From assembly GCA_025450315.1 (NCBI GenBank), contig JANWHQ010000045.1, positions 62,001 to 126,000 of the forward strand: a stretch of 64,000 bases of DNA, given 5' to 3'. The stretch comes from Caulobacteraceae bacterium (GTDB lineage: Bacteria; Pseudomonadota; Alphaproteobacteria; Caulobacterales; Caulobacteraceae). Made by a program: the position numbers and the translations under genes. Below the pieces are notes generated by a model, which saw only the letters and a program-made list of their open reading frames with translations, searched no databases and had not been told where the DNA came from. Shown in pieces: positions 6,265 to 60,560 of this stretch (its first letter is position 1; every line of letters starts with the position of its first letter).

Positions 6265-6322
6265 GGCGCGCGGTCGGCCGCCGGCGCATCCTTCGACCGC
6301 TGACTGGTAGAAGGAGCCCGCC

Positions 6323-7156: not shown

Positions 7157-7163
7157 GCCGCCG

Positions 7164-11199: not shown

Positions 11200-11200
11200 G

Positions 11201-24267: not shown

Positions 24268-24322
24268 TTGGAGCGGGCGGGGGGAATCGAACCCCCGACA
24301 TTCAGCTTGGGAAGCTGACGTT
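24268..24322 (-). repeat. attL: 3' fragment of tRNA-Gly
   Basis: This copies the anticodon-loop-to-CCA part of the tRNA at 60487-60560 and then departs abruptly after 24322. It lacks the D arm and 5' acceptor strand, so it is not a functional tRNA. Two bases differ from the intact gene, and they are paired positions in the T stem (G-C here, C-G there), so each copy keeps a perfect stem. It is probably the displaced original 3' end of the host tRNA gene. Confidence 0.9.
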
Positions 24323-31200: not shown

Positions 31201-31568
31201 GCGCTGATCGCTTCCATCAGACGACGCATCGAGTCGAGCGCGCGTTCAGCGTCGTCATAGGTGAAGGTCTCATTGTGCGAGAGCTTGTTGCGGACATCGC
31301 CCAGCTCATTCACCAGCGATCGTTCCGCGCGGCCGAGCACGGTCCTGAACGCATCATTCCAGAACCGATCCATCGCGTTGAGCAACGCGGCCTGATCCCA
31401 GCCAACAGCGCCGTCGCTGTTAGGACGCAAGTTCGGAAGTTTCTCCAGGACCTGGACTTGCCAGTGTCCTTTGAGTGAGCTTTCGAGCCTCTTTTCGACG
31501 AAGGGAATGAGTGCCGCTGGGAGCAGCTCCATTCCCTCGAAGACATACTGACGCGTACTCTTGGCCAC
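28272..31568 (-). CDS. DUF499 ATPase with N-terminal Swt1-like HEPN domain
   Basis: 1098 residues. Residues about 1-125 look like a Swt1-type HEPN domain, with the RX4H motif RNKLSH at 93-98 that is the catalytic signature of HEPN ribonucleases. A large DUF499 (COG1483) P-loop ATPase follows, with Walker A NFGGGKTHS near residue 250 and Walker B CLILIDEWVAYL. The C-terminus (from about 1000) has a Pro/Gly-rich linker and a small domain. DUF499 genes regularly pair with DUF1156 methylases in defence islands, as here (11-base gap). The HEPN end could make this subunit an RNA-cutting effector triggered by the ATPase, which is my inference. Confidence 0.88.
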   Translation of the reverse strand: MAKSTRQYVFEGMELLPAALIPFVEKRLESSLKGHWQVQVLEKLPNLRPNSDGAVGWDQAALLNAMDRFWNDAFRTVLGRAERSLVNELGDVRNKLSHNETFTYDDAERALDSMRRLMEAISAGETAEQLSKMRDTILRTKFTELQRNEERRKTQRLEISVETVAGLLPWRDVVEPHQDVATGEFQQAEFAADLAKVHSGSAPADYRDARQFFSRTYLTEGLSALLIGAAKRLSGSGGDPVVELQTNFGGGKTHSMLALYHMAGSAPVQDLPGLDQLLEKHGLSVPQRINRAVLVGTSRGPQDVLNAEGGRKIRTTWGELAWQLGGAEAFDMIAENDASGIAPGSAMLEAIFNKYAPCLILIDEWVAYLRQIYRVEGLPSGSFDANLSFVQSLTEAVKASPKTLLVASLPASQIEVGGEGGQEALVRLKQTFSRVESSWRPASQEESYEIVRRRLFKEIPGDKFHHRDNTLKQFAKLYRENANDFPQGCADEDYRRKLEKAYPIHPELFDQLYTTWGSLEKFQRTRGVLRLMAQAIHELWMNGDPSVMIMPGSVAVSSPRVEPELLHYLDVSWQSIIAGDVDGLTSTPYKIDQAAPNLNRYSATRRVARAIFMGTAPTHQQQNTGLDDKQINLGVVQPGERPAIFGDALRRLTNQAKFMHADLGRYWYSMSASLNRIAADRAAQIESALVLMTIDGELSKYVNSLADRGHFDAVQVAPASSAEVPDESGGVRAVVLGVAHPHNGRDGSEALAEAKDILMQRASTPRVYRNMLVFIAADARHLDNLKDAVRSALAWGEIVRDTDRLNLTQSDSALAKAKLAEANETMRTRLKEAWCYLHYPAQESAQADVEWVSGKIPAQDGLLARASKKLVAEEGLLTELGPTRLDRDLKKYIWNGKPHLSLKDLREYLNRYIYLPRLKNQEVLIRAVQAAVSGMLPGPFAYAERWDEKSDTYLGLAIEKAPNAAVVIDSDSLIVKLDVAEAHRPPPAQPGPTGDQGEKGEGASGVGEQPTEGTPVTPPTEKRPTRFIGTVMISAERPAKDIHQIVEAIVEQLTTLPGAEVKLRLEIEAEVPTGLERAKVRTLIENANTLGFIEKSIE

Positions 31569-31579
31569 GACGCTCCTCC

Positions 31580-34387: not shown

Positions 34388-37300
34388 AGACCAGCCTGTA
34401 CGTCGCGGGGTGAAGGGTGATCTCGCCGCCTTCGCGAAGCTCGCGCAGGTGGCTTCCCGTCATCTCGGCGGGCTCACCTTCGGGACTGAGGAGAATGAAC
34501 GAGTAGACGTCTGGCCTCTGGTCGAGCAGGCCCCAGACATCTGCTTCGATCTGGAGCGGCTCGCGCTCCAGGCAATGCTCCCTCGGAGAATAGTGACGCA
34601 GGACCTCGCCGTTCGATGAGCGGCGTTCCCAAGGAAATTTTGCACCTGCGACGCGGGCGATCCAACTCCCGTCGGAATGGAAGAACCGGTCGTCGCCATC
34701 GGCCTTGTAGCCCAGGGCGAGGGCGAAGCGCGCCATGACGCTCGGCCGCGCCGGCTTCGGAGCAGCTCGAGGCTTGGTGATGACCTCAGAGTCAATCAGT
34801 TCGCTAGCCAGCGCCTCCGGTTCCGAATCGGGATTGGCCGCCTCTGATGGTTCATCCGCTTCGAACACGTCCAGCACATTCCCGGGTGGCTCGGCTTCGA
34901 CCACGCCGACGTCCTCATCTTCACTCTGGCGCAGACCGTGCGCGGGGGGGGCTAATTCGGCTATATTGTCGGTGTTATCGACTTGCGCATCGGTCACGGC
35001 GGTGGCGGCGGCGGGCTCCGGACCGAGCGTGAAGTTCTCCTCGAGATAGGCCTTGATATCCTCCGGCGACCTCTCGAACGCGTACGCCAGCGCAGCCCGA
35101 ATTTCCGCGCTCAGGCTCTTCCCAATCTCCTCAGGCACGCGCTTGGCAAGCTTGGCCTTCGACAACGGGCCGACGAACAGCTTGCCATCGAGCCACAGGA
35201 CGTCCGTGAGCCGCGCCGTGCCGGCCGGGACACCGTCGAGATAGGGAATGACCTCCAGTTTGGGCGCCGTAACCCAGCTTGTCCGCGTGATCGCGGTCGC
35301 GAGAGCCTGCACACGCTCGGATTCGGCAGGATCAGCAAGCTCGATCCGTCCAAGCTGAGTCCCGAACGTTGTCAGCCAAGGGCTCCGGCCTTCCGGGCCG
35401 GCGAGCAACGACGGTTGGCTGAACCTCTCTTCAACGAGGTCCGACAGTGCTGGCAGCGCCGAGAACGGCGGCGTTTGCACGATTTCCGCCGGCAGTCGCT
35501 GAAGGTCTGCGGCCTTGCGTTTGACCCAGTCGTGCAGGTGACTCCACCGGAACAGGGTCTGCATGCTCAGCGCGTAGGCGAGCGTGTCGACGGGAACCCA
35601 TTCGCCCAACAGGTTCACCCAATGACCGCGCTCCTCCCAGATGCGGGTCGGATATCGGACTAGCAAGGTCCGGACGCGGCGGGCGTCATCCGTCGAGAGG
35701 GCCTTTCCCGAGGGCAGTGTCCCTAGCCATTGCAGCGCCAAGTCAGCAGATGGACGTTCGGCGACACCGATGCGCCGCCACATGCTGAGATCGAGCACCG
35801 AGGCCCGGATTACCGCGGCTCCGGGAACGTCCTCTTCGTCGCCGGCGAGGAACACGCCGCCCGCCATCAGCCATGTGCCGTCCTGCGCGAGGATCAGCTT
35901 CTCGGTCTTGAAGGCATCCTTGATGTTCTGGGCGTCCCCTGTGGAGCAACCGTCAAGCATCTGGTCGAGGCGGCGATACCATTTCTCGACCTCATGCGCC
36001 GGAGCCTTTTCGGATTTCGCCAAGGCGCGGAGTCGGTCGAGCAGACGACCGGGTCCGCTCGGCGTGCTGCGGACGCCGAGCAGGTCGAGCAGCGGGCGCG
36101 TCGTATCCCGGTCGAGCAGCCCATGCACGAAAGGCTCGATGTCGATCAGAGATTCCGTTCCGGGCGTTCTGCGCAGCAGGTCCGTCGGAAGCTGAATCAC
36201 GTCGCGTGTGTCCGGAAGACAAGGCTTGCCCCTTAGTTTCAGCAGCCAATCCGCCAGCAAGGGCTCCGAAGTGATGGATCGTGTCGATCCCGTGGTCGCG
36301 ACCTGCGACAGGCGCGCGCTCGACGCCCGCGCCCAGTAGCTGTCGCGCTGTTGCAGAATCCGCGCGGCAACCCTCGCCCATATCCGCGGGTCGGTCTTCG
36401 ACACCGCCTCCCAATGCTTCCAGTAATCGGCTGAGAAGTCCCAATCGTCGATGACGAAACTGTCCGTGACGTAGGGATAGTAGACCGACCCACGCAGCCC
36501 CCGCGCCTGCGCCTCCGTCGTGACCCGCTGCCGCCCGTAAATGCTGCCCCGCTTCGAGATCAGAGGCACAAACGTCTGGAGTCCAGAGCGACCGGAAGAC
36601 ACCCATCGCAGCCAATCCTCCCGCGAGCAGGACTTGAAGTCCGTTACATAGTCGGCGTGCAGGAGCTGCGTCTGCTGAACCGCCTGCGGCAGCAAATCCT
36701 CGAGCGCACCGTCTTCGTCGAACAGGATCGCCTTGGCGATTGGTCGGAGCTTCAAGTCGGCGCAAACATACCGGAAGGAGTCTCCGATGGCGGCGCCAAG
36801 CTTGGCTGCGATCTGGGCGAGCTGGACGCATTCGGTCAACTTAGGCTGGGCCGAGCCGAAATAGTCCGCGGCAACTCGCTCGATCACGGCATTGACGTCG
36901 CTCGTGTCGTCCAAGCCGACCTCTTCGAGCACAGCGAAGGCAGCCTGGACGGGGTCGTTCCGACCGCCGGCGCCCTCGGTCTTGTCGCGCCTCTGCTCGG
37001 CGAGGAAGCGGGGCCAATTCTGATTCAGGACGATCAGATGGCCGGCGAGGAATACCCAATCTTCCTCCGACTGCAGCAGCTTCTTCTCGCCAAGCCGCAC
37101 CACCTCGGACGCCGAGTAGAGGACCTCTTTGCCCTGGACGGGCACAATTCGCAGCCGGTCGGCGTCTTGGCATTGCCAGCTCGTCACCTCGGGCGCGATG
37201 TAGGACCACAGGTTCAGCAAATGACGCCAGGTCGACGGCCGAGGGAGATGGTTGGTGCGCAGCCTCTGAAGGAGATCGGCCTTCGAGAATTCCTCAACCA

Positions 37301-38675
37301 GATTCCAGCGAACGAGCTTGTTCCGGTCTCTAACCGACACGTGCTGACACAGCGCCAGCCGTGCCCCGGCGTCGAGCAAGGCCATCGCCTGGTCAGCTGG
37401 CCAGATGTCGAAAATCTGCTGCGGAACGACAACGGCGCCCTTGGCGGTGACGAGCTCACCTTCTTCAGTGAGCACGATCGGCCGATCACCGACGGCGTCC
37501 TCAAACGCAAGCTCAACAATCGCGGCGCAAGACCCTTCGAGCGAACTGACCTCACGGTCTACGTCGGGTAGCAGTCCATAGGCGTCAGCGCGGTCTCGTG
37601 GGCTGGTCTTCGTCTGTTCGAGCCACTCCGACATCGCGCTCGCGGCAAGCTCGCCGGCGCGCTTCAGGAGCCAGCGGTTTGTTGGCGACGTCTCCGGATC
37701 TTTGATCTTGAGACGCGCGGGGTCCTGGATGAATGGGGCATTGCAGGCAAAAGGAAGTGGTGTTTCGACCCCGGTGGGCAGCACCACGTAGAGCCTTCCC
37801 TTGGCGCCCAGGACGATCTCAACCCGGCACGGTGGAAAATCGCCGCTGTCCTCAGCACCCAGCATGCGCTCCTTGCGGATTTCATCGAGCGAGTCGGCCG
37901 GAAAGGCCTCCTCTTCCGACCGGACCAGCAGGAAGGGATCTTCCGCCTTCTGGTCCAACGCCATCCATTCGCTCTGGGCGATGGGGCCGGGACCGAGGCT
38001 CTGCCAGTGCACTGCATCATCGCCAAACTGGAGGCGGCGAAGCTTTCTAAAGAAGAGCAGCGAGACTGGGCTCTTCAGCCATTCGTCAAGGTTCTTCTCG
38101 AGCTCCCGGCGCAGCAAAGGGTTCGCGATCGCCACCTCGACCCGTGTCAAACCGGACGTCAGGTGCGTACCCTCGATCCAGAGCGGCTCCGTGAAGCGAG
38201 CGCGTTCGAATGCTACCGCCAGGGTAGGCGTGAACAGCTCGACCCGATCCCCCAAGCTGAACGTGCTCTTGAAGCCAATCCCGCGAAATCCGATCGTGTG
38301 GAGCGCTCGCTTGTTCGAATAACCGAAGCGGCAGATCGACGCGAAATGAGCCTCGATGAAGTCCTCGCCGTTGTGCTCGAACACGAAGCGATCGTTCTCG
38401 ATCGACACACGCGCTTCGCTGGCGCCGGCGTCGTCGGCGTTCTGGAGCAGCTCAGAGAGAACATGGCGCGGGCTCTGCACCTGCTTGAACAGCTGGTGCC
38501 ACGGACCGGCAAGCTCCGGGTCCGCCTCAAGCTGGTCCCAGCGCTTGGACGCGCGTTCCCTGATCGACTGAAAGTATTCCGGTTGCGGCGCTCCTACCGG
38601 AGCCGGCTGACGTGCGCCGCTCATCTCGACACCACCGAAAGCCGCCTCTTGAGGCTGGCCCGATAGCCGATCCAT
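34371..38675 (-). CDS. giant GHKL (sacsin-like) ATPase of the defence operon
   Basis: 1434 residues. The N-terminal 200 form a sacsin/Hsp90-like GHKL ATPase: N box ELLQNADDAGA near 75, HNGEDF, and GFRGIGFKSTF near 125. The rest is a long multi-domain region with no family I recognise, including an acidic linker (about 1215-1285) and a C-terminal domain (about 1300-1434). Such sacsin-like proteins occur in defence islands but are not a core part of classical DISARM. The gene is inside the operon, 32 bases after the helicase gene and overlapping the methylase. ATG 38675 is used; ATG 38624 is also possible. Confidence 0.8.
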   Translation of the reverse strand: MDRLSGQPQEAAFGGVEMSGARQPAPVGAPQPEYFQSIRERASKRWDQLEADPELAGPWHQLFKQVQSPRHVLSELLQNADDAGASEARVSIENDRFVFEHNGEDFIEAHFASICRFGYSNKRALHTIGFRGIGFKSTFSLGDRVELFTPTLAVAFERARFTEPLWIEGTHLTSGLTRVEVAIANPLLRRELEKNLDEWLKSPVSLLFFRKLRRLQFGDDAVHWQSLGPGPIAQSEWMALDQKAEDPFLLVRSEEEAFPADSLDEIRKERMLGAEDSGDFPPCRVEIVLGAKGRLYVVLPTGVETPLPFACNAPFIQDPARLKIKDPETSPTNRWLLKRAGELAASAMSEWLEQTKTSPRDRADAYGLLPDVDREVSSLEGSCAAIVELAFEDAVGDRPIVLTEEGELVTAKGAVVVPQQIFDIWPADQAMALLDAGARLALCQHVSVRDRNKLVRWNLVEEFSKADLLQRLRTNHLPRPSTWRHLLNLWSYIAPEVTSWQCQDADRLRIVPVQGKEVLYSASEVVRLGEKKLLQSEEDWVFLAGHLIVLNQNWPRFLAEQRRDKTEGAGGRNDPVQAAFAVLEEVGLDDTSDVNAVIERVAADYFGSAQPKLTECVQLAQIAAKLGAAIGDSFRYVCADLKLRPIAKAILFDEDGALEDLLPQAVQQTQLLHADYVTDFKSCSREDWLRWVSSGRSGLQTFVPLISKRGSIYGRQRVTTEAQARGLRGSVYYPYVTDSFVIDDWDFSADYWKHWEAVSKTDPRIWARVAARILQQRDSYWARASSARLSQVATTGSTRSITSEPLLADWLLKLRGKPCLPDTRDVIQLPTDLLRRTPGTESLIDIEPFVHGLLDRDTTRPLLDLLGVRSTPSGPGRLLDRLRALAKSEKAPAHEVEKWYRRLDQMLDGCSTGDAQNIKDAFKTEKLILAQDGTWLMAGGVFLAGDEEDVPGAAVIRASVLDLSMWRRIGVAERPSADLALQWLGTLPSGKALSTDDARRVRTLLVRYPTRIWEERGHWVNLLGEWVPVDTLAYALSMQTLFRWSHLHDWVKRKAADLQRLPAEIVQTPPFSALPALSDLVEERFSQPSLLAGPEGRSPWLTTFGTQLGRIELADPAESERVQALATAITRTSWVTAPKLEVIPYLDGVPAGTARLTDVLWLDGKLFVGPLSKAKLAKRVPEEIGKSLSAEIRAALAYAFERSPEDIKAYLEENFTLGPEPAAATAVTDAQVDNTDNIAELAPPAHGLRQSEDEDVGVVEAEPPGNVLDVFEADEPSEAANPDSEPEALASELIDSEVITKPRAAPKPARPSVMARFALALGYKADGDDRFFHSDGSWIARVAGAKFPWERRSSNGEVLRHYSPREHCLEREPLQIEADVWGLLDQRPDVYSFILLSPEGEPAEMTGSHLRELREGGEITLHPATYRLVYDLNE

Positions 38676-38707
38676 GGATCAGCCATGATCAGCCCCTTTT
38701 GCGCTTC

Positions 38708-42208
<3,501 letters not shown>

Positions 42209-42274
42209 CACCCGCCCTCCTGGCTCGCGCTAGAATGAACCAAGCTCACCTGGCTTCTCAACTTTAGTTTGTAG

Positions 42275-43813: not shown

Positions 43814-43889
43814 TTAGGCCTCCTAAGCTCAAGCAGCAGAAATCGGTGTGATGAAGAGCGCCGCGTGAAATCCGCTCAGCGCGGACCAG

Positions 43890-49543: not shown

Positions 49544-49741
49544 TTGTCGCGTCTCGCCGCCACACCCAGTCAACTGCAGCGCCTCCTCGAGGCCCTGGCC
49601 ACCCTCGGCTTCGTCCCGAAAAGGGTCCAAGTGTCGCCGGACGGCTCGATCACGCTCCACAGCGAGGGAGGCGAGCCCACTTCCGAGCGCGACCTCTTGA
49701 AGGAGTGGGAGGCGCGACGTGGCGGACGACAAGTCCAGTAG
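49544..49741 (+). CDS. small hypothetical protein upstream of integrase
   Basis: About 65 residues from TTG 49544, which has GAGG nine bases before it; an in-frame TTG at 49529 is also possible. The sequence RLLEALATLGFVPKRVQVSPDGS looks like a small alpha-beta protein. It lies between the serine recombinase and the tyrosine integrase and overlaps the latter by 23 bases. By position it could be an excisionase-like factor, but no HTH is evident. Confidence 0.45.
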   Translation: MSRLAATPSQLQRLLEALATLGFVPKRVQVSPDGSITLHSEGGEPTSERDLLKEWEARRGGRQVQ

Positions 49742-50873
49742 AGCGGCGCTGCCGAAGGGGCTCTTCAAGGCCACGACAAGGCTCGCGAGCGGAGAGGCCA
49801 GAACCTATTGGTACGCGTGGCGTGGTGGACCCCGACTGCCCGGAAACCCTGGCACGCCAGAATTCGCAGCCGCTTACAAGGCCGCGGTTGCCGAGCGCCA
49901 AAAGGCGCCGACAAGAGGCGTGCTCGCCGGCCTCGTTGTTGACTATCGCGGCTCTCCCGAGTTCACCGGCAACGCGGAGAGCACCAAGGCCGAATGGTCG
50001 CGCTACCTGGACCTGATCCAGGACGAGAGTGTTCCCCTCGCGATTGGCGGCTTGCCGGTGGACGTCCTCGCTGATGCGCGTGTGCGCCAGCACTTGATGG
50101 CCTGGCGGGACCAGTGGCGGGAGACGCCGCGAAAGGCGGACTACGCCATGCAGGTGCTGTCGGCGGTCCTCAGCTGGGCCAGGCATCGCGGCGTGATCTC
50201 CACGAACATCCTGATCGGCCATGGAACGCTCTATCACTCGGACCGCGCCGATCAGATCTGGACCGACGAGGAGATCAATCGGTTCGTCGCAGCGGCGCCG
50301 TCGCCGGAAGTTGGCTTCATTGTGCGACTGGCCTGCGTCACCGGCCTCCGCCGAGGCGACCTGCTCCGGCTCGAGTGGGGCAACGTTGGCGAGAACGCCA
50401 TCGTGCTGCTGCCGAGCAAAAAGCGGCGCCGAAGCCGCAAGCCGCCGAGGAAGGCGATCATTCCGCTACTTGACGACACGATCGACCTGCTGGCCGAGAT
50501 CAAGAGGCGCCAGAACGAGCAATGGAAGATGGCCGCTTATGCTGCGGAACAAAAGGGCGACATCATCCCGCCGAGGCCCGCCACAGTCCTGACCAGCACG
50601 CGCGGTCGGCCCTGGACCGTCAACGGCGCCGAACACCAAGTCGTCGACACCAAGAAGAAAGCCTGCATCGACAAGCACCTGCACGATTGCCGCGGAACCT
50701 TCGCCACCCGCCTCCGCAGCGACGGCGCAACTACGTCGGAGATCGCGGACATCCTGGGCTGGGAGGAGGATCGGGTCGAACGGCTCCTGGCCATCTACGT
50801 CGACAAGGAATCGGTGGTGATGGCCTTCGCCGGGCGGATGCGCGCCAAGTCTGCAGCCAGGAAGCAGGGCTGA
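49719..50873 (+). CDS. int: tyrosine recombinase/integrase
   Basis: 384 residues from GTG 49719. The N-terminal SAM-like arm- and core-binding part (about 1-170) is followed by the catalytic domain: first Arg in TGLRRGDLLRLEW, HxxR as HDCRGTFATRL near 315, GW in ILGWEEDRVE and the nucleophile Tyr in LLAIYVDK near 355. All catalytic residues appear intact. It is the best candidate for the enzyme that put the island into tRNA-Gly, yet it is 9.6 kb from attR and not next to an att site as is usual, with the selenium cluster in between. Confidence 0.9.
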   Translation: MADDKSSRAALPKGLFKATTRLASGEARTYWYAWRGGPRLPGNPGTPEFAAAYKAAVAERQKAPTRGVLAGLVVDYRGSPEFTGNAESTKAEWSRYLDLIQDESVPLAIGGLPVDVLADARVRQHLMAWRDQWRETPRKADYAMQVLSAVLSWARHRGVISTNILIGHGTLYHSDRADQIWTDEEINRFVAAAPSPEVGFIVRLACVTGLRRGDLLRLEWGNVGENAIVLLPSKKRRRSRKPPRKAIIPLLDDTIDLLAEIKRRQNEQWKMAAYAAEQKGDIIPPRPATVLTSTRGRPWTVNGAEHQVVDTKKKACIDKHLHDCRGTFATRLRSDGATTSEIADILGWEEDRVERLLAIYVDKESVVMAFAGRMRAKSAARKQG

Positions 50874-51147: not shown

Positions 51148-51846
51148 CTAGCGGTGGACCGCGTTGGGTGTGGAACACTGGGATCCGAGCCGCCAGGGAG
51201 GGGTGCTCATCCTCCGCCGCGTTCTTTGAGCCAGGAGGTCCCAACCTTCAAGTCGGCGAATGATCTCCTCGGTCCAGACGTGGGCATTTCCGGAGGACGT
51301 GTCCACGACCAAGTCCGCCTGGAGGAGAACGTCGCGTGCTGGATCTTGAAGGCGGTGCGACGCTTCCTCTTGATCCATCATCATTCGAGGACTTCGGGAC
51401 ATGAGCCGGCGCTCCCTAATGTGATCTGGCGCCCAGAGGCAGACGACGAACGCCTCATCCAACATCGAGCGAGGATGAACCTGGGCGTCCTCGCCCAACA
51501 GGGCGTTGTTCGCCGAATACACCGCCAATCCGTAGGGCGCAGGCTGAGTGAAACCGTACCACTCGGTTCTTGCGGGCCCGATCGCTCTACTCCAGTGAAG
51601 CAGAATGTGCCCGGCCCGCACATAGGTGAGGAACCGAGACTTAGGGACGTGGCGGTTTTCCTCGAAATCGTCATTGTCCCGCGGAGGCCGGGTTACGTAG
51701 CGCTTCGGAAAATTGAGCACGCTGTCGGCAAGGCCGCTTGCCTTCAGAGCATTTAGTAGCGTGGTCTTTCCGGTTCCGCTCGATCCTGCAATGACGAGGC
51801 AGCTCGGCGGGGTCAGCGCCTCAGCCCTCCGTCGTGCCGCGTCCAT
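51148..51846 (-). CDS. PhnN-like (ribose 1,5-bisphosphokinase/guanylate kinase fold) kinase
   Basis: 232 residues. P-loop GSSGTGKTTLLN at about 21-32, RYVTRPPRDNDDFEENRHV after it, and WAPDHIRERRLMSR near the lid match the PhnN branch of the guanylate kinase fold. PhnN converts ribose 1,5-bisphosphate and ATP to PRPP, normally in C-P lyase operons, which are absent here. The ATG at 51846 is two bases after the NUDIX stop, and it is last in the selD operon. A C-terminal tail of about 35 residues is basic and unlike the family. The substrate in this pathway is likely a phosphorylated sugar or nucleotide. Confidence 0.75.
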   Translation of the reverse strand: MDAARRRAEALTPPSCLVIAGSSGTGKTTLLNALKASGLADSVLNFPKRYVTRPPRDNDDFEENRHVPKSRFLTYVRAGHILLHWSRAIGPARTEWYGFTQPAPYGLAVYSANNALLGEDAQVHPRSMLDEAFVVCLWAPDHIRERRLMSRSPRMMMDQEEASHRLQDPARDVLLQADLVVDTSSGNAHVWTEEIIRRLEGWDLLAQRTRRRMSTPPWRLGSQCSTPNAVHR

Positions 51847-51848
51847 GT

Positions 51849-52469
51849 TCAAGCCGATCTCGCGAGGAGGTAACGGAGCAAGGTGCTCGCCGAACGGTCT
51901 TCGAGAATGAAGCCTTCGCGGAACAGTTCCATGGCGGTATCGAAGGCGTAGAACGCCGGTACCACACACTCTCCCTCTGCGGTGATGCACGGACGGGACG
52001 GGAGATGTTCGGACTCCACAGTGACCGTGAAGTAGTAGAGGTCCCACTCCACCGTCGCACCACAGCTTGAGACATGCAGGAGCCTGAGGTCCTTGAAGTC
52101 GACGATTCCCGTCTCTTCTTCAAGTTCTCGGGCTGCCGCCCTCATCGCCAGGGCGAAGAGCTCATCCTTCTCCAACATCAGGGCCTCGAACGAGGCGAAG
52201 TCGTCGACGACCTTTCCTCCGGGGAGCCGGTAGTCCCAGCTGTTGTGCTCATGCCGCCATTCCTTGTTCAGGAGAACCGACCGATCCGTAGTCGCGATGA
52301 CCCGCACCCCGGGCGGTCGCCTGGCTACCTCGAAACGGGTTTCGTGGCCGTTCGGGAGACGCACGCGCTGTTCGTAGACCTGAATAAGCTTGCCTTGGTG
52401 CACCACATCCTTCGGCCCCAGCGGCTCGATCAGGGTCGGAATGTGGGCGCTCTGCGCCTGCGCTTTCAT
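51849..52469 (-). CDS. NUDIX hydrolase
   Basis: 206 residues from ATG 52469, overlapping the desulfurase stop as ATGA. The NUDIX helix is AMRAAARELEEETGIVDF (about 106-123), with the first Gly pair in LPGGKVVDDFASFEALMLE and an unusually long insertion between them. Surrounding strands (WRHEHNSWDYRLPGG) resemble the ADP-ribose/NDP-sugar pyrophosphatase branch. It would cleave a nucleoside diphosphate linked to a second group. In the same operon as a PhnN-like kinase and SelD, it may handle a ribose- or nucleotide-linked intermediate. Confidence 0.82.
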   Translation of the reverse strand: MKAQAQSAHIPTLIEPLGPKDVVHQGKLIQVYEQRVRLPNGHETRFEVARRPPGVRVIATTDRSVLLNKEWRHEHNSWDYRLPGGKVVDDFASFEALMLEKDELFALAMRAAARELEEETGIVDFKDLRLLHVSSCGATVEWDLYYFTVTVESEHLPSRPCITAEGECVVPAFYAFDTAMELFREGFILEDRSASTLLRYLLARSA

Positions 52470-53659
52470 GATTGATCCCCTGATCTCATGAGAGTTCGCC
52501 CCCCAAGGAATGCCAACGCGCTGGTGAAGTGTTCGCACGTGGTGCGGATGTCCTGACGCGTGGTCGACCAGCCGAGGCTCAGCCGGAAGCTAGACCGGAT
52601 ACGGTCATCTGGAACACCGAGCGCACGGAGCACGTGGCTCTCCCGAGCGCCCGCCGCGGTGCAGGCTGCGCCGGTCGAAAAGTGGATGTCCGGCGCGGCC
52701 CGCATAAGGGCAAGGGCGTCTACGCCCTCAAAACCGCCGTTGATGTTGTTGCAGAGCCGCTCCGTGAGGCTGCCGTTGGTAAAAAAGGGGCCGATCCTGC
52801 CGAGGATTCCCAGCAGTTCGTCACGGAGCGCGCGGATACGGGCCGCGTCGCGGTCCAGGTCCCGCACCGCGCGGCTGACGGCGACGCCCATGCCGACACA
52901 TAGCGCGTTGGGCAGAGTACCCGATCGTAGGTTGCGCTCCTGCCCCCCACCTACGGTGAACGGCCGCAGGAATTTCATGGCGCTGGGCCTGCACAACACC
53001 GCGCCGATGCCTTGGGGGCCCCCGAGCTTGTGTGCGGAGACGGTTAGAAAGTCGGCCTTCAAAGCTTCGATCGAAACCGGCATCCTGCCGACCGCTTGAG
53101 CGGCGTCCACGTGGATCAGGGCCCCCCTAGATCGGCAAAGGCCGGCGATTTCCGCGACGGGCTGGACGACGCCAACCTCGTTATTAGCAATCATGATCGA
53201 GACTAGGTCAGCGCCCCCGTCGAGAGCACGGACCAGGGCCTCGAGGTCGACGATTCCATCCGAGTTGACAGGAATCTGGTTGACCTCGGCGCCCGCCCGT
53301 TCGAGCCGGGCTGCGGATTCGAGCACGCACTTATGCTCAATCGCGCTTACGACGAGACGGGCCGGCGACCGTGCAGCAAGTGACGAGACGACAAGATTGT
53401 TCCCCTCGGTCGCGCCACTGGTGAAGATCAGGCCTTCTGGATCCCCGCCGAGCGCGAACGCAATGTCATTTCTTGCCGACTCGATCTGTGTTCTGACGAA
53501 GCGCCCTGAGCCGTGCGTCGCGCTGGCGTTGCCGATGTGGGTCGACCAGAACGGCTCCATGGCCGCCGCGACCTCGGGATGCAGGCGTTCGGTGGCCTGA
53601 TTGTCGAGATAGACGCAGGGCCGGTCGGAGGAGTGGTTGAAGGCGTTGGTTAGGGTCAT
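52466..53659 (-). CDS. cysteine desulfurase / selenocysteine lyase (NifS/IscS-like)
   Basis: 397 residues. PLP Lys K211 in VSAHKLGGPQGIGA, IEHK with His109, SGATEGNN at about 81-88, and the catalytic Cys C333 in STGAACTAAG. The NifS/IscS class takes S or Se from Cys or selenocysteine to a protein persulfide/perselenide. Next to selD it most likely delivers selenium to selenophosphate synthetase, as NifS-like proteins do in selenium metabolism. The ATG at 53659 is seven bases after the selD stop; the stop overlaps NUDIX. The Cys loop (GAACTAAG) is a little unlike housekeeping IscS, which suggests a specialised copy. Confidence 0.88.
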   Translation of the reverse strand: MTLTNAFNHSSDRPCVYLDNQATERLHPEVAAAMEPFWSTHIGNASATHGSGRFVRTQIESARNDIAFALGGDPEGLIFTSGATEGNNLVVSSLAARSPARLVVSAIEHKCVLESAARLERAGAEVNQIPVNSDGIVDLEALVRALDGGADLVSIMIANNEVGVVQPVAEIAGLCRSRGALIHVDAAQAVGRMPVSIEALKADFLTVSAHKLGGPQGIGAVLCRPSAMKFLRPFTVGGGQERNLRSGTLPNALCVGMGVAVSRAVRDLDRDAARIRALRDELLGILGRIGPFFTNGSLTERLCNNINGGFEGVDALALMRAAPDIHFSTGAACTAAGARESHVLRALGVPDDRIRSSFRLSLGWSTTRQDIRTTCEHFTSALAFLGGRTLMRSGDQS

Positions 53660-53666
53660 GACCGCC

Positions 53667-54704
53667 TCACCGCAGCAGTCGCAGCAGTACGCCCGTCACC
53701 GGTTCGCCGACCGAACCGATCAACGAGGGCTCGAGCCCCGCCTCAGCGATGATCGCGGCGACCCGGGCCGCCGCGGTCCGGTCCGCGCAGACGAGGAGGC
53801 CGCCGTTGGTTTGGGGATCGGCCACGATGAGGCGTTCGTGTTCCGACCAGTCGCCCTGGAAGTCGACGAGGCCCTCGTTGTCTCGCAGGTTGCTGGCAGC
53901 CAGGTCTGGGACAGCGCCCTCTCGGGCGGCCGCGCTGATGCCGTGCAGTATCGGCATCTTGCCATAATCGAGCGTCAGGGTGACGCCGCTGGCCTTGGCG
54001 ACTTCGCTGGCGTGACCGATGAGGCCGAAACCAGTGACATCAGTCAGCGCCGTCACGCCAGCTTCTTCGCCGAGGACTGCACCGACAGAATTCAACCGTC
54101 GCACCGTCGCCAACGCGGCTTCGAAGTGGTCTGAGGAGAGCAGGCCCAGCTGCCAGGCAGTAATCGCAATGCCGCTCCCCAGCGGCTTGGTGAGGAAGAC
54201 CTGGTCCCCAGGCTTAGCGCCGCCCTTGGTCTTGATGCGGGTGTCAGTCGTAACCGAGAAGACGGTGAGGCCGATGATGGCGGTCGGTCCACTAATGGTG
54301 TGACCACCAACGATGCGGCAGCGGCCCGTCTCGCGACAGGCGTCCGCGATGCCGCCCATGATCTCTGCACCGGTTTCTTCAAGCGGCAGGACCCATGGCA
54401 GCACCAGCGAGACCAGCGCGTACTCGGGGACGACGCCCGACGCATAGAGGTCGCTGAGCGCGTTCGTCGCCGCGATCCGCGCGGAATCGCGCCAGTCGTC
54501 CACCAAGGGGGTCTGGAAATCGACACTCGCCACCAAGGTCAGGCCCGGGACCCCTTCGATGGGGAGAAAGGCAGCGTCATCGTCACCGCCGCCGCTTACA
54601 GCGGCGACCGCTCCATCGGCGCGGATCGCCGTCACGACGGGCGCGGGCACCTTGCAGCTGCAGCCCCCCTTGGCCGCGAAGCTCGTCGGACCCAGGGACA
54701 GCAT
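53667..54704 (-). CDS. selD: selenophosphate synthetase SelD (Cys type)
   Basis: 345 residues. The flexible N-terminal loop GGCSCKVP has the catalytic Cys C15 in place of Sec and the essential Lys K18, matching Cys17/Lys20 of E. coli SelD. Further motifs are DFQTPLVDD (metal and ATP site), NALSDLYASG, GGHTI, FGLIGHASE and ADPQTNGGLL. It makes selenophosphate from selenide and ATP. The ATG at 54704 is chosen for its GGAG; codons up to 54740 are also open. Sec-synthesis and tRNA-seleno-modification genes are not seen in the window, so the product is probably used by enzymes of this cluster. Confidence 0.93.
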   Translation of the reverse strand: MLSLGPTSFAAKGGCSCKVPAPVVTAIRADGAVAAVSGGGDDDAAFLPIEGVPGLTLVASVDFQTPLVDDWRDSARIAATNALSDLYASGVVPEYALVSLVLPWVLPLEETGAEIMGGIADACRETGRCRIVGGHTISGPTAIIGLTVFSVTTDTRIKTKGGAKPGDQVFLTKPLGSGIAITAWQLGLLSSDHFEAALATVRRLNSVGAVLGEEAGVTALTDVTGFGLIGHASEVAKASGVTLTLDYGKMPILHGISAAAREGAVPDLAASNLRDNEGLVDFQGDWSEHERLIVADPQTNGGLLVCADRTAAARVAAIIAEAGLEPSLIGSVGEPVTGVLLRLLR

Positions 54705-54728
54705 AACCATCTCCGATTCGCGAATGTG

Positions 54729-54847
54729 TGGCAGACGCATTATCTATACGCCGAATTTGGCAGATCGCAATAGGCATGCATAAAACGTATGGCTAGTCGC
54801 GCTACCCTTAATGATACGACGCTTGCGCCCGTTCCGATCTGGCAGAT
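54729..54847. promoter_or_regulatory. divergent promoter with three TGGCAGA repeats
   Basis: The gap between selD and the LysR gene contains TGGCAGA at 54729-54735, 54758-54765 (TGGCAGAT) and 54840-54847 (TGGCAGAT), all in one orientation and 29 and 82 bases apart. They may be binding sites for the neighbouring LysR protein. Base composition is AT-richer than either gene, as promoters often are. Confidence 0.4.
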
Positions 54848-54892
54848 TATGGGGGTGCTGCGCGGACCGCAGAGGTGGATTCGGAGGTGGCC

Positions 54893-55933
54893 TTGAAGGA
54901 AAACCGCCTTTCCCTGGACATCGAGTGGTTGGAAGACTTTCTCGAGGTGGTCAGGCAGGGGACCTTCACCCAGGCGGCCGCCTTCCGTGGAGTCACCCAA
55001 CCTTCCCTGTCTCGCCGGATCCGCAATCTCGAACGCTGGCTCGGCGCCACGCTTTTCAACCGCGACCTTACGGAGGTCGAAAAGCTCGCCGCCCTGCCGG
55101 CTGGCTATCGTCGCGGAACCCTTTCGCTAACTTCCTCCGGGCTCGAACTTCAGAAGACTGCCGGTCAAATCGTCGAACTGATCCGCCAAACAAGAGATCA
55201 GGTCAAGCAAGTTGCTCCCGCAAATTCAATGCCAATTTATACCGTCCATTCACTGGCATCTACTTTCGTTCCTGAGGCGATAAAAGTAATACGGCGGCAA
55301 CTTCCTAAGGACGAATTCGGATTAAATACCACAATCGTTGTTGGAACGATCTCGGATTGCGTGGAGGCTATCTCCTATGCCGTCACCCCGTTTATGATCT
55401 GCTACGAAAATCCGAAACAGCGCATACTATTCCCAGCCGACGTGCCCGCTGAACGGATTAAGTCGATTCGCATAGCCCAAGACAGACTAATACCGGTCTG
55501 CAAATACAGTGAAGCCGAGAAATATCAAAGTCTCATAAAGAACAAGAAGCCAGTACCCTATCTTGCTTATTCTGCCGGAACATATCTCTCACATCTTGTT
55601 CGCGAGAAGATAGAAGAGCTAGATATATCCAATCTAGACCAGATCGATGATGCTCCCATGGCGGATACGTTGAGAAATCTAGCTCGGGCGGGACAGGGGA
55701 TGGCTTGGGTGTTGGAGTCAACGGCAAAGAACGGACTTCAGGCTCGAGAAATCCGGCGTATATTCACTCAGAATTCTGCGGATGAAGCAATACCGCTGAA
55801 TATAATGCTATTTCGAGCGACCGATTACGTCACCAAGAACGATGAACTTATCGCGATCGAGCGAACGTGGAAACGTGCTGGCCAGCTGGAAGAGTTGCTG
55901 GCGAAGGAGTTTAAAGTGGTGGAAGCGTCCTAG
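54893..55933 (+). CDS. LysR-type transcriptional regulator
   Basis: About 346 residues. The N-terminal winged HTH is DIEWLEDFLEVVRQGTFTQA and GVTQPSLSRRIRNLE (about 9-60), then a substrate-binding domain. A TTG start at 54893 has GGAGG five bases before; GTG 54875 is an alternative. It is divergent from selD and leads the PEP-enzyme operon with an 18-base gap, so it probably controls both operons in response to a cluster metabolite. Its coding region from about 55200 to 55900 is far AT-richer than the neighbours, a sign that this part came from a different source. Confidence 0.85.
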   Translation: MKENRLSLDIEWLEDFLEVVRQGTFTQAAAFRGVTQPSLSRRIRNLERWLGATLFNRDLTEVEKLAALPAGYRRGTLSLTSSGLELQKTAGQIVELIRQTRDQVKQVAPANSMPIYTVHSLASTFVPEAIKVIRRQLPKDEFGLNTTIVVGTISDCVEAISYAVTPFMICYENPKQRILFPADVPAERIKSIRIAQDRLIPVCKYSEAEKYQSLIKNKKPVPYLAYSAGTYLSHLVREKIEELDISNLDQIDDAPMADTLRNLARAGQGMAWVLESTAKNGLQAREIRRIFTQNSADEAIPLNIMLFRATDYVTKNDELIAIERTWKRAGQLEELLAKEFKVVEAS

Positions 55934-55951
55934 TGAAAAAAGGCATTGTAC

Positions 55952-58243
55952 GTGGCTGATGGCACGATCACGGGCGCATGGACTCAGCGCGAGACGCAGT
56001 GGGCGCTGAATCGGCTTGGGAGTGTTGAGCTGTGCCTGGGCGCTACCAACCTGCACCAGGATTTGCATTTCTCATCGTTCTATTTGCGCGCCAGCCTCGC
56101 GTCGGAGACGCGTACGCTTTATCCTGGGTACAGCTTCGTCCTCGCGGTCTACGAAGAGGGGGTCGAGCGGTATTATCTCTCGGCTCGTGAGACCGAACAG
56201 ACGGCGTCCTGGTTGATCGATCGATCGGTTTCGGACCCGGCTTGGCTGGCTACCCAGCTGGCGAAGATCGAGCAACAATCGGATGCGCTCCTCGCGGCTT
56301 TTCCCGACGACCTGAACGAGGCGTGCCTGCGCCAAGCGAGTCATGGCTCGTTGCTAGAGCTGTACCGTCGGCACAATGACCTCCACAGGGAACTCTACGC
56401 CTATGCCAGGTTGCCTGAGGCCCTCGATAGAGGGTCCGCCCATTTCACCGACTACTTGAACGGATGCCTGAGGCGCCTCGGCGTGTGCGATGCGGACCTA
56501 CCACACGTCTTTGAGCGGCTGGTAACGCCGGAAAGACCCAGTGTTATCGCGAAGGAACAGGCGGAGTTCGAAGCACTCGCGTTGCAGGCGGCGGCCCTCG
56601 CTCCCCAGCTCCGATGGACGCACTCGCCCGCGATGTTTCTGCCGAACGACATCCGGGAGGCGCTAGGACATCATCGGGAACGGTGGGGCTGGCTCTCCTA
56701 TCACGGCTTCCGACGGCGAGCGCTGCCGACCGAACACGACTACCTGCGGAGGCTGACCGCCCTTCTCGTCGACCCGGAATTGGGTCCGTCCAAACAAGCG
56801 CACGGTGGCACTCGTTCGCATGATCCGGATTTGCTCCGGATTGACCAACACCATCGCGAGTTGTTCCGGCTCTACGCCGAGATCGGCCGCGTAAAGCTGC
56901 ATCGTCGCTACCGGCAACTAAGGAACTTCTATTTCCTCGACATGCTCATGGCCGAATTTGCCCGGCGGCTCGACATTTCCGAATGGGACGTACGCTGTTG
57001 CCTGCCAGAGGAGCTGTTGAAGGCAATGGCGGTCGGTCGGATCGAACCTGAGATCGCCGAGCGGCGGCGCAGCTGCGCTGTGCTTTACACCGACCATGGC
57101 GAGATCGTGCTCACGGGAGACGCATTGGCGGAAACGATGCGAAGGTTGAAGTGGCGACGGACGGTTGATCCCGGCGGAGCCACCCTGCACGGAACATCCG
57201 CTTGCACTGGTTCCGCGCGTGGAACGGCGCGTATCGTGGGCCAGGAGGCGAGCGCCGAAATGCAGTTCAACCGCGGAGACGTCCTGGTATGCGAGGCGGC
57301 GGACCCGGACTTGTTGCCCCTGATTCGGAAAGCGTCCGCCGTCGTCACCCAGCAGGGCGGCGTCGCTTCCCACGCCTCCGTCCTCTGCCGCGAAATCGGG
57401 GTACCTACGGTGGTTGGCGTGGATGGCTTGCTGGACACCGTCTGCAACGGGGACGATCTCCTAGTCGATGCGACGAAAGCAACGGTCACCCGTCTGAGGT
57501 TTGCGGCAGTTCCGGGATACGTCGAACTGGAAGCGCCGCGCTGCAGCTGGGGCCAGGCTGATCTCGTTGGACACAAGGCCGCGAACCTACACCGCGCCGT
57601 TCGTTCCGGATTCCGGGTTCCTCCGTTTACCATTCTATCTTGGGAGGCCGTCAGGACGCTCCTAGAGGAGGATTCAGCGAAGTTCGGACGCTACATCAGA
57701 GATCTCGCACAGGCGTTGCAGCCAAGTGCGTCTGACCCTTCGTTCCTGTTCCGAAGCAGCGCCATCGGCGAAGACTGCGCCGGCCGGTCGTACGCGGGAA
57801 AATATGTGTCCGTTCTCTTCTCGTCCGACCCCGTCACAGCAGGGCGTGAATTCGTGGAGCGGAACGGTCGAAAGGGCTACGAGGGCGCGATCATATTGCA
57901 GCACTTCGTCCCTGCGGCCGCCAGCGGAGTGAGCCTTGATGGCGACGCCCGTACCGGCTCAGGAGAAAGGCTTATCATAGAATCTGTAGCCGGCGCTCAT
58001 AATAGGGTGACGTCCGGCGTCGGCGCCCCAAATCGACTGACATACGACCGAACGACGCAAGAGGTGCTGGTCGGCCAGGCAGCGGATGTCGGAGCCGCGG
58101 AATCGAACTTTCCGGCTGATGAGCTGGTAGCTTGGCTGGATATGCTGGGATCTATCTACGGGCGACCGTGCTATACTGAATGGGGCTACTTCGATGGCGA
58201 ATACTGGCTTTACCAGGTTCGCGGCGGAGCTGTGGAAGCGTGA
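55952..58243 (+). CDS. domain-permuted PEP-synthase-like phosphotransferase
   Basis: 763 residues from GTG 55952 (AAAAAAGG upstream); TTG 55946 is also open. Residues 1-400 are helical and not recognised. A phospho-His swivelling domain follows, with H474 in GGVASHASVLCREIGVPTVVG, and then a C-terminal ATP-grasp domain of about 225 residues (GHKAANLHRAVRSG, FLFRSSAIGEDCAGRSYAG, ending TEWGYFDGEYWLYQVRGG). In PEP synthase and rifampicin phosphotransferase the ATP-grasp part comes first. No PEP/pyruvate TIM barrel is visible. It probably moves ATP's phosphate via His to an unknown substrate. It follows LysR and is eight bases before the MoCF gene. Confidence 0.82.
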   Translation: MADGTITGAWTQRETQWALNRLGSVELCLGATNLHQDLHFSSFYLRASLASETRTLYPGYSFVLAVYEEGVERYYLSARETEQTASWLIDRSVSDPAWLATQLAKIEQQSDALLAAFPDDLNEACLRQASHGSLLELYRRHNDLHRELYAYARLPEALDRGSAHFTDYLNGCLRRLGVCDADLPHVFERLVTPERPSVIAKEQAEFEALALQAAALAPQLRWTHSPAMFLPNDIREALGHHRERWGWLSYHGFRRRALPTEHDYLRRLTALLVDPELGPSKQAHGGTRSHDPDLLRIDQHHRELFRLYAEIGRVKLHRRYRQLRNFYFLDMLMAEFARRLDISEWDVRCCLPEELLKAMAVGRIEPEIAERRRSCAVLYTDHGEIVLTGDALAETMRRLKWRRTVDPGGATLHGTSACTGSARGTARIVGQEASAEMQFNRGDVLVCEAADPDLLPLIRKASAVVTQQGGVASHASVLCREIGVPTVVGVDGLLDTVCNGDDLLVDATKATVTRLRFAAVPGYVELEAPRCSWGQADLVGHKAANLHRAVRSGFRVPPFTILSWEAVRTLLEEDSAKFGRYIRDLAQALQPSASDPSFLFRSSAIGEDCAGRSYAGKYVSVLFSSDPVTAGREFVERNGRKGYEGAIILQHFVPAAASGVSLDGDARTGSGERLIIESVAGAHNRVTSGVGAPNRLTYDRTTQEVLVGQAADVGAAESNFPADELVAWLDMLGSIYGRPCYTEWGYFDGEYWLYQVRGGAVEA

Positions 58244-58251
58244 GAGGCGAA

Positions 58252-58965
58252 GTGGTGACACCAACCGCGAGCCTTATTCTTGTTGGCACCGAACTGGTCC
58301 ACGGATCTGTAGTGGACGAGAACCGGCAGTTCATCGCGCACGAGCTGCGGTCGGTGGGAATCGATCTCATCAGCGTCCATATCGTCAAGGACGATGTTCC
58401 CACCCTTGCGGCGCTGATCCGCCATCTAGCCCCCGTCGTGACCTACCTCATTACCGTCGGAGGTCTGGGGCCGACGGTGGATGATGTCACTCTCGAAGCC
58501 GTGGCGATCGCGCTGGATCGTAGGCCGGTCTACAATGAGCCAACGGACGTGGCCGCGTTTGCTCAGATGTCCGGCAGCGAAACACCACAGCCTTTGCTGC
58601 GGGTCATACCGGAGGATGCGGAAACCATCCTCACGAGCCAGGGCCCTGTTGTCCGAACCGAAAACGTTTTCAGCCTTCCTGGTTTGCCGCGCCTGGTTCG
58701 GGCGCGCTGGCCTGCCGCGGTTTCCAGGTTCGAGCACGGCGCCATTTGCTCCCGCGCTTTGACCCTGCCCCGCGCACAGAGCCAAGTGGCCGGCACCCTC
58801 AGGGAGGCAAGCCGAATTTTTCCGGCCGTCTCGATCGGCTGCTATCCGACTTCGGACGCCCGGGAGACCACTCTTACCTTCGTGGGGGATACGGCGGAAG
58901 CGGTTGAAGCTTGCGTCGACTATGTCCGCACTGAAGTTGATGTCGAGAGGATTGTCTCGGGATGA
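58252..58965 (+). CDS. CinA N-terminal/MoCF-domain protein
   Basis: 237 residues. SLILVGTELVHGSVVDENRQF and LITVGGLGPTVDDVTLEAVA are the MoaB/Mog-type (MoCF) motifs of COG1058, and VSIGCYPTSDARETTLTF with the following helix resembles the KH-like piece found after it. The NMN deamidase half of full CinA is missing. Some COG1058 proteins hydrolyse ADP-ribose; others bind nucleotides or pterin. The start is GTG 58252 (GTG 58240 and 58255 are also possible), eight bases after the PEP enzyme. The end overlaps the dioxygenase start by ATGA, so it is part of the same pathway. Confidence 0.78.
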   Translation: MVTPTASLILVGTELVHGSVVDENRQFIAHELRSVGIDLISVHIVKDDVPTLAALIRHLAPVVTYLITVGGLGPTVDDVTLEAVAIALDRRPVYNEPTDVAAFAQMSGSETPQPLLRVIPEDAETILTSQGPVVRTENVFSLPGLPRLVRARWPAAVSRFEHGAICSRALTLPRAQSQVAGTLREASRIFPAVSIGCYPTSDARETTLTFVGDTAEAVEACVDYVRTEVDVERIVSG

Positions 58966-59867
58966 CCACTCTTGAGGACCTTACCTGTTCGTCGGCGTCA
59001 GTGGAAGCATTGCGCGAAGGCCTCCAGTCCTACGGCGTCGCCCGAATCCTCGAATTCGTTTCGCCAGAAGTAATCGATAGCTTGCGGCACGAGGCGATGA
59101 TCGCGACTTCCGAATTCGCCAACTATCTCAATCCATACGGGCCCTGTTCGAGATTCAGTCTCACCCCACTCCCCGACAATTTGTCCGTCTCAAGAGATCT
59201 GGTGAACGGCAAGCATCTTTCGCCACTTCCGCAACAGTTCCAATCCTCTCGAGCGGTTATTGAAGGAGAGCTGCTGCGGAAAATCACGGAAACATATCTT
59301 GGATCGAGTAGCGGGTTCATGGAGGTTGTGGCCTTTGCGCGTGACCACATTCCCGATCATCAGGCGGTCTACGGTAAGCTCCATTTCGACCGCCGGCATC
59401 AACTGAAGTTCATCATCTATCTCAACAATGCCGATGAGGAGAATGGCGCCTTCGGATGCATTCCGGGATCGCACCGTCTCGGTCGCGAGCTCTACTACCG
59501 GGCATGGCGGCAGACCCTAAGGCTGCGCACGGATGATCCCTTGGAAATCGAACGCGCCGCCTTCGCGGTCAGCGAAGACGAGCCGGTTTACCGGTTGGTG
59601 CCGTGCATTTTCGAAAACGAGCCCAAAATTGGGCCCTATGAGCCCAAGCGCGACCGGCTGACCATATCGGGCGCCGCTGGTACGCTGGTGGCGTTCGACA
59701 CCCACCTGCTTCACTACGGTGGGTTCGTAAAACAAGCGGGAGGGGAACGCTGGACTCTGAAGGGCCATTCGTTCGCTGAGGCTCGTTCGGCGTCGCGTCC
59801 TCCTGAGGAAGCCAGCGGTCCTATTGGCCCTGGCCACCACCACCACCACCACCACCACCACCACTAG
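58962..59867 (+). CDS. phytanoyl-CoA dioxygenase-like Fe(II)/2-oxoglutarate enzyme with His10 tail
   Basis: 301 residues. The iron triad begins with HFD (H141, D143) in YGKLHFDRRHQLKF; the distal His is H248 or H251 in FDTHLLHYGG, and R263 in GERWTLKGHS is the likely 2-oxoglutarate salt bridge. IIYLNNADEENGAFGCIPGSH is the PhyH sheet. It would hydroxylate or otherwise oxidise a small molecule using O2 and 2-oxoglutarate. The C-terminus is GPIGPG followed by ten His (292-301), all coded CAC, then TAG. The gene overlaps MoCF as ATGA and ends the operon. Confidence 0.85.
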   Translation: MTTLEDLTCSSASVEALREGLQSYGVARILEFVSPEVIDSLRHEAMIATSEFANYLNPYGPCSRFSLTPLPDNLSVSRDLVNGKHLSPLPQQFQSSRAVIEGELLRKITETYLGSSSGFMEVVAFARDHIPDHQAVYGKLHFDRRHQLKFIIYLNNADEENGAFGCIPGSHRLGRELYYRAWRQTLRLRTDDPLEIERAAFAVSEDEPVYRLVPCIFENEPKIGPYEPKRDRLTISGAAGTLVAFDTHLLHYGGFVKQAGGERWTLKGHSFAEARSASRPPEEASGPIGPGHHHHHHHHHH

Positions 59868-60113: not shown

Positions 60114-60195
60114 AAGGCCCCAACGGCCGTACGTGGGCACCTACGCGGACGGCGTCTGGAACGACAACCTGCTCGCCCTTCCGGAGTGCGCGTAA
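60114..60195 (+). pseudogene. frameshifted 3' fragment of DUF3892-like gene
   Basis: Closely matches the last 80 or so bases of the minus-strand gene at 43890, encoding TYADGVWNDNLLALPECA and then TAA. Compared with it, one base is lost upstream of the conserved stretch, shifting the frame, and nothing upstream matches. It is a relic of a second copy, inverted relative to the intact one. Confidence 0.8.
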
Positions 60196-60421
60196 CGGAC
60201 CGGCGCCATGCGAGACCCGCGCGGCGCCCGGTGCTGCGGATCCCATTGTTTGAGCCCTAGGGAAGCTTCGGCCGTTCGGGCGGCTACCTGCGCACAGCCC
60301 GAAAGCGTCCGCTCCCAGCGTCAGCTAGGAGTCAGGCGTGATTCCACGCGCCGCTCGCGGGACCCGAAACGTGCTCAGCTCAGATCTCCCAGGCCGGATG
60401 GAACACTGCCGGAACTGGCCC

Positions 60422-60449: not shown

Positions 60450-60485
60450 CGCGAGCAGCGGTCGACAGTTAAGTGTTTGAAAAGT

Positions 60486-60540
60486 TGGAGCGGGCGGCGG
60501 GAATCGAACCCGCGACATTCAGCTTGGGAAGCTGACGTTC
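60486..60540 (-). repeat. attR: island-proximal part of the tRNA-Gly gene
   Basis: This 55-bp stretch of the intact tRNA gene is repeated at 24268-24322 with two paired T-stem differences. It includes the anticodon arm, T arm, acceptor 3' strand and CCA, and marks the right junction of the island. After integration this half would come from the island and the 5' part from the host. Confidence 0.9.
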
Positions 60541-60560
60541 TACCTCTGAACTACGCCCGC
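60487..60560 (-). tRNA. glyU: tRNA-Gly(CCC)
   Basis: 74 nt with encoded CCA, read on the minus strand from 60560. Acceptor GCGGGCG pairs with CGCCCGC and is followed by T-CCA. The anticodon loop TTCCCAA gives CCC and sits on a TCAGC/GCTGA stem. The T arm is GCGGG-TTCGATT-CCCGC. D arm GTTC...GAAC is present. It is the integration target of the island at its 3' end and remains intact, so the element restores the gene. Confidence 0.95.

Follow-up and report, generated by a model that had tools for sequence, protein, structure and literature searches.

The window, meaning the whole 64,000-nucleotide stretch of DNA analysed here, contains a cluster of eight genes arranged as two divergent operons separated by a 134-bp region between selD and lysR.

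51148..51846, minus strand: P-loop kinase of the guanylate-kinase/PhnN type, final gene of the selD operon (NCBIfam PhnN, PDB guanylate kinase, Walker A)
51849..52469, minus strand: NUDIX hydrolase with an intact NUDIX box (Pfam, E 8e-10; LPGGK...RELEEETG)
52466..53659, minus strand: NifS-type cysteine desulfurase, NifS2 (331 bits to NifS, 329 to DndA; PLP Lys211 and Cys333 kept)
53667..54740, minus strand: divergent selenophosphate synthetase, SelD2, first gene of the minus operon (TIGR00476, 265 bits)
54875..55933, plus strand: LysR-type regulator (Pfam HTH_1; G+C only 0.52)
55946..58243, plus strand: fused small-molecule dikinase, a PEP-mobile/PPDK_N protein (Pfam PEP-utilizers and PPDK_N; swivel His476)
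about 58255..58965, plus strand: MoCF (CinA/FLAD1-like) protein (Pfam MoCF_biosynth and FLAD1_M)
58962..59867, plus strand: PhyH-type Fe(II)/2-oxoglutarate oxygenase (Pfam PhyH, E 3e-9; HxD...H)

ORF, Pfam and NCBIfam checks showed all eight genes to be present with open reading frames. The minus operon reads selD-nifS-NUDIX-kinase, with junctions of 7, -4 and 2 bases, and the plus operon reads lysR-dikinase-MoCF-phyH, with junctions of 12, 11 and -4 bases. The gene families, their order around LysR and the tight junctions are thus as described in the first-pass annotation of this DNA. Motif inspection revealed intact catalytic residues in SelD, NifS, the NUDIX protein, the kinase, the dikinase and PhyH, the last with metal ligands at HFD 141-143 and His248/251. 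With every frame open and the motifs intact, a pseudogene or artefact was ruled out. The phyH gene ends in ten consecutive His codons (a CAC repeat, window 59837-59864), giving a natural poly-His tail that probably arose by repeat expansion.

Some of the family assignments were narrowed. The kinase had been called PhnN-like, but its hit to the NCBIfam PhnN model is a weak one that covers only residues 17-87 and scores 40.8 bits where the cut-off is 156; its best solved-structure match in the PDB is guanylate kinase (E 3e-4), and its Walker A motif is GSSGTGKT. With so poor a match, the assignment goes no further than a P-loop kinase of the guanylate-kinase/PhnN type. For the MoCF protein, the best full-length alignment was to the MoCF and middle domains of FAD synthase (8ron, E 3e-22 over residues 3-226). 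AlphaFold single-sequence models of the kinase and dikinase reached pLDDT values of 33-34 and were discarded.

The plus-strand enzyme previously described as a permuted PEP-type phosphotransferase does contain PEP-utilizers and PPDK_N domains, arranged in the order of a PpsAB/HpeHI-type dikinase and fused into one protein. An N-terminal substrate/helical region is followed by a swivel domain with His476 and a shortened ATP-grasp, the order found across two separate genes in locus L100. The L100 relative aligns only across the swivel and ATP parts, while P0013, a 513-aa protein encoded near a CYTH protein in a mobile element of a gut record, is a homologue of the N-terminal region and swivel and has no ATP part. 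Neither relative lies beside selD. The dikinase alone had no matches in the genome-contig or viral-contig collections, and searches over the order, phylum and class returned only generic PEP enzymes. From its domain order and relatives, the protein probably phosphorylates a small molecule, and PEP need not take part. An uncharacterised phosphotransfer cassette was also observed on a gut mobile element (L098:4523-8127), in which consecutive genes encode an unknown protein of 304 aa, a relative of the window dikinase with a swivel His, a membrane protein and a CYTH protein.

SelD2 passes the equivalog model TIGR00476 (265 bits, cut-off 125) and falls below the narrower NF002098 (233, cut-off 299). 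Its active-site motif GGCSCK occupies residues 25-30, and the catalytic pair is Cys27 and Lys30 when counted from the upstream ATG; these are the Cys15 and Lys18 of the first-pass annotation if Met13 is the start. The Asp/Asn metal-site residues (Asp53-55, Asp74, Asn93/Asp97 and Asp234) are kept, so that the residues for making selenophosphate from ATP are present and the activity itself is inferred.

The host genome already encodes standard selenium traits. A canonical selD (415 bits) adjoins mnmH (selU) on a contig other than that of the window, and selA and tRNA-Sec lie 2 kb apart on a third contig (C147); neither selA/tRNA-Sec nor mnmH adjoins the window selD. As these traits have a SelD of their own, the one in the window is additional, and by sequence it is a divergent paralogue and not the housekeeping copy. 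Some caution applies, since the assembly is a draft whose contamination is estimated at 5.7%, and a contig might be of foreign origin. No YqeB was found genome-wide, and the model TIGR04348, which we take to be SenB, stayed below cut-off throughout the genome. Among the cluster neighbours, Pfam and NCBIfam searches gave no match to SenA or SenB, and no MnmH, SelA or selenium-dependent molybdenum hydroxylase (SDMH) gene was present. The earlier statement that selenophosphate users are lacking therefore holds within the window but not for the genome, which has mnmH, selA and tRNA-Sec.

A tblastn search over plasmids identified one close SelD-desulfurase pair, on plasmid unnamed5 of Sulfitobacter sp. 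S190 (NZ_CP081125.1). There, selD, a cysteine desulfurase and a DHH gene form an operon with 4-base overlaps that adjoins genes for a tyrosine integrase and TIR-domain proteins. The window and S190 proteins are 43% (SelD) and 47% (NifS) identical. In the SelD tree the two group with support 100/98 (100/100 after three long rows were dropped), and the desulfurases group with support 99/100. Since both SelD branches are long, the SelD grouping rests also on the common gene order. As both proteins pair in the trees, selD plus desulfurase appears to travel as a unit. A desulfurase-like gene has been reported to recur near orphan selD (PMC5029168), so this pairing is not without precedent. No other cluster gene (NUDIX, kinase, dikinase, MoCF, PhyH or LysR) is present at the S190 locus or elsewhere on its plasmid. 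Homologous loci had been predicted to keep selD together with the plus-strand genes; S190, the sole such locus found, lacks them all, which on this single comparison speaks against the prediction.

The window and S190 SelDs both carry GCSCK, DFQ and TNGG; in a sample of about 30 Pseudomonadota SelDs, the corresponding motifs are GCGCK, DFF and TSGG. The otherwise ordinary SelDs of Thiogranum also have DFQ and TNGG, without an adjoining NifS. A signature scan of the genome-contig collection returned 48 SelDs, mostly from Bacteroidetes and gammaproteobacteria, none of which adjoins NifS2, so TNGG by itself is not diagnostic. A NifS profile run over 385 alphaproteobacterial genomes recovered only paired desulfurases without selD. 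In the viral-contig collection, SelD alone, a chimeric SelD/NifS signature and the SelD pair had no matches; NUDIX, kinase and PhyH queries had no plasmid match, and none of the collections searched yielded the complete cluster a second time.

Two other selD neighbourhoods were noted. In Thiogranum and relatives (L079, L080 and L084, about 5500-11700), selD with DFQTPLVD/TNGG is preceded by a binding-protein/sensor gene and followed by a TauE/SafE-like permease, a possible link to uptake of selenium or sulfur oxyanions. In Aurantimonas sp. VKM B-3413 (L085:4989-12877), a divergent selD (GCSAK) is surrounded by genes of the glycosyltransferase, deacetylase, NMN-adenylyltransferase-like, sulfotransferase and methyltransferase types and by two genes for probable 2-oxoglutarate oxygenases, apparently another selD within a biosynthetic cluster.

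The window cluster lies inside a genomic island of 36.2 kb, bounded by a 55-nt tRNA-Gly repeat, with the following features outside the eight genes.

24268..24322, minus strand: left att-like copy, a 55-nt partial tRNA-Gly duplication (direct repeat, 96% identical to 60485-60539)
28272..42211, minus strand: Hma candidate anti-phage operon HmaA, HmaB and HmaC with an inserted TmtA-like ATPase (PADLOC 1580, 1223 and 953 bits)
49719..50873, plus strand: tyrosine integrase adjoining the kinase end of the selD operon (Pfam Phage_integrase)
60486..60560, minus strand: intact tRNA-Gly at the right island end (ARAGORN and repeat)

The G+C content drops from about 0.70 to about 0.63 exactly at the left repeat, so that the island has a lower G+C than the host, and GC3 is mostly 0.56-0.83, compared with more than 0.9 in host genes. 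An integrase, an att duplication at a tRNA and a distinct composition together characterise a tRNA-integrated island. Its cargo encompasses the tyrosine integrase, a serine recombinase, the complete Hma operon, the TmtA-like ATPase, a PLD protein and the selD cluster. Hma is a candidate defence system (PMC8565338). A search for an empty integration site in relatives found the flanks unconserved there beyond the tRNA. That the selD cluster is horizontally acquired island cargo forms part of the best explanation given below.

The ATPase is a HATPase/Sacsin-type protein of 1434 aa (window 34371-38675) between HmaA and HmaB. A 112-nt inverted repeat (77%) was observed at window 43858-43969 and 60116-60227, 16 kb apart; both copies carry the same C-terminal gene remnant (TYADGVWNDNLLALPECA), the recombinases and selD cluster lie between them, and the repeat could delimit a smaller unit within the island. 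On a Thermomicrobium roseum plasmid (L113:3571-6170), a BREX-like operon ends with a cysteine desulfurase gene overlapping brxL, another case of a desulfurase tied to a defence locus.

For the cluster as a whole, we favour a horizontally acquired accessory selenium pathway, with a probability of about 0.42, in which a private SelD2/NifS2 supply and both operons would yield a selenium-containing small molecule. NifS2 would take selenium from selenocysteine or another donor and pass it to SelD2, as the families and their pairing suggest. SelD2 would then use ATP to form selenophosphate, separately from the housekeeping SelD serving Sec and selenouridine, and the selenium could be donated to a small phosphorylated acceptor. 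The dikinase, whose domain order and residues are observed, would phosphorylate a hydroxyl of a putative substrate or intermediate through its swivelling phospho-His, and the PhyH enzyme would oxidise that substrate or intermediate. The NUDIX, kinase and MoCF proteins may produce, trim or recycle an activated form (phosphoanhydride or nucleotidyl), and LysR would control both operons.

This reading draws on the second, divergent SelD alongside canonical selD-mnmH, selA and tRNA-Sec, on the occurrence of SelD2 and NifS2 in one operon both here and on the S190 plasmid, and on tight operons with a divergent regulator in common and intact catalytic residues. Selenium-metabolite genes beside selD also have a precedent in the sen cluster (PMC9814287). 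A divergent SelD tied to its own desulfurase and recurring on another mobile replicon fits a dedicated selenium use outside SelA, MnmH and SDMH. Against it stand the lack of a SenB-like or other obvious C-Se bond-forming enzyme in the cluster and the missing companion genes at the sole homologous selD-nifS locus. The end product, most likely a small molecule containing selenium rather than a tRNA or protein, is probably phosphorylated and oxidised. A phospho-ribosyl or nucleotide-derived product, as first proposed, found no support: the assignment to PhnN is weak, many substrates are used by NUDIX and MoCF proteins, and the dikinase family phosphorylates phenols, pyruvate and rifampin. That both operons form a single pathway is plausible but unproven.

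The main rival treats the plus operon as unrelated cargo. Here, selD-nifS-(NUDIX-kinase) would serve selenium, and LysR-dikinase-MoCF-PhyH would be a catabolic or resistance module that phosphorylates and oxidises another small molecule, in the way that HpeHI and phenylphosphate synthase phosphorylate phenols. S190 retains selD-nifS without the plus-strand genes, the dikinase relatives lie away from selD, the island itself is modular, and the G+C of LysR deviates from the 0.58-0.67 of the other cluster genes, which hints at a mosaic cluster. We nevertheless consider two modules somewhat less likely than one pathway, as the operons have the intergenic region and a regulator in common and the G+C of the other seven genes is similar; one comparison locus is weak evidence either way.

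Alternatively, SelD2 and NifS2 could be spare parts that top up selenophosphate for host Sec and MnmH, ordinary redundancy after gene transfer. Although the host has the corresponding users (selA, tRNA-Sec and mnmH), a canonical selD is already beside mnmH, and SelD2 is strongly divergent, with derived motifs, among unrelated enzymes, which makes redundancy improbable.

Slightly less probable again is an anti-phage role, in which a selenium-modified nucleotide or nucleic-acid mark would hinder phage by a logic like that of phosphorothioation or chain-terminating nucleotides. Hma occupies the same island, the S190 pair sits beside TIR genes and an integrase, SspA and DndA give the best PADLOC scores for NifS2, and NUDIX and kinase are nucleotide-type folds. 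However, the cluster has no DndB-E or SspB-D partner and no nuclease or sensor, the SspA/DndA similarity is common to general IscS/NifS proteins, and cargo of any kind commonly co-locates with defence genes; it is only the location that suggests a defence role. A shift of SelD2 to sulfide or another nucleophile is very improbable: its long branch, the active-site-adjacent changes (DFF to DFQ, GCGCK to GCSCK) and the existence of non-selenium SelD-like families (PMC4210487) are set against retained Cys27, Lys30 and metal-site motifs and against the DFQ and TNGG of ordinary Thiogranum SelDs.

The accessory selenium pathway, on these grounds, may be a candidate new way of using selenium, with a putative product. 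To our knowledge, few biological selenium uses exist: selenoproteins, selenouridine, the molybdenum-hydroxylase cofactor and selenoneine. That mobile elements carry a paralogous SelD coupled to a desulfurase of its own suggests another use of selenophosphate, and the two-locus comparison provides a search signature (GCSCK, DFQ and TNGG plus an adjacent NifS). Genome surveys for orphan SelD would miss such modules, since they can occur in genomes with standard selenium traits. The new pathway first proposed is thus retained as far as SelD2 is not the housekeeping copy and is paired with its own desulfurase on two mobile elements, but not as regards a genome-wide absence of users. A bolder version is doubtful, namely a further kind of selenium-metabolite pathway as island cargo, in which the private SelD-desulfurase pair would provide selenophosphate for a selenium small molecule or nucleotide that is phosphorylated and tailored by the 2-oxoglutarate oxygenase, perhaps for phage defence or competition. 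The combination, the private SelD-NifS pair and the island setting were not found in the literature searched, while the parts belong to known families.

Among known systems, the sen (selenoneine) cluster is similar in placing a selD homologue in a small biosynthetic operon unconnected with Sec or SeU, whereas the window cluster has no SenA or SenB, other tailoring enzymes and its own desulfurase; with no SenA/SenB match among the neighbours, identity with sen was rejected. In SDMH (orphan SelD) loci, too, SelD is accompanied by further selenium-trait genes and lies outside Sec and SeU, but the host genome has no YqeB, the cluster has no hydroxylase, and its MoCF protein is by best match FLAD1/CinA-like and not a Mo-cofactor enzyme; an SDMH cluster was rejected on the absence of YqeB and the hydroxylase. 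NifS2 belongs to the same desulfurase superfamily as DndA and SspA, with similar scores, but the partner genes are missing, and a Dnd/Ssp phosphorothioation system was rejected for want of any DndB-E or SspB-D gene in the cluster. The dikinase resembles PpsAB/HpeHI/CreHI and rifampin phosphotransferase in its swivel-His and ATP-grasp domains, PpsA-PpsB order and kept catalytic residues, and differs from PpsAB/HpeHI/CreHI as a single fused protein with a shortened ATP-grasp and its own N-terminal region, closest to P0013. The two-component PpsAB/HpeHI dikinases phosphorylate phenols via phospho-His (PMC12167813). The S190 locus is similar in having SelD and NifS in the same order, translationally tight, adjoining a tyrosine integrase on a mobile replicon, but has a DHH/pyrophosphatase-like protein as its third gene.
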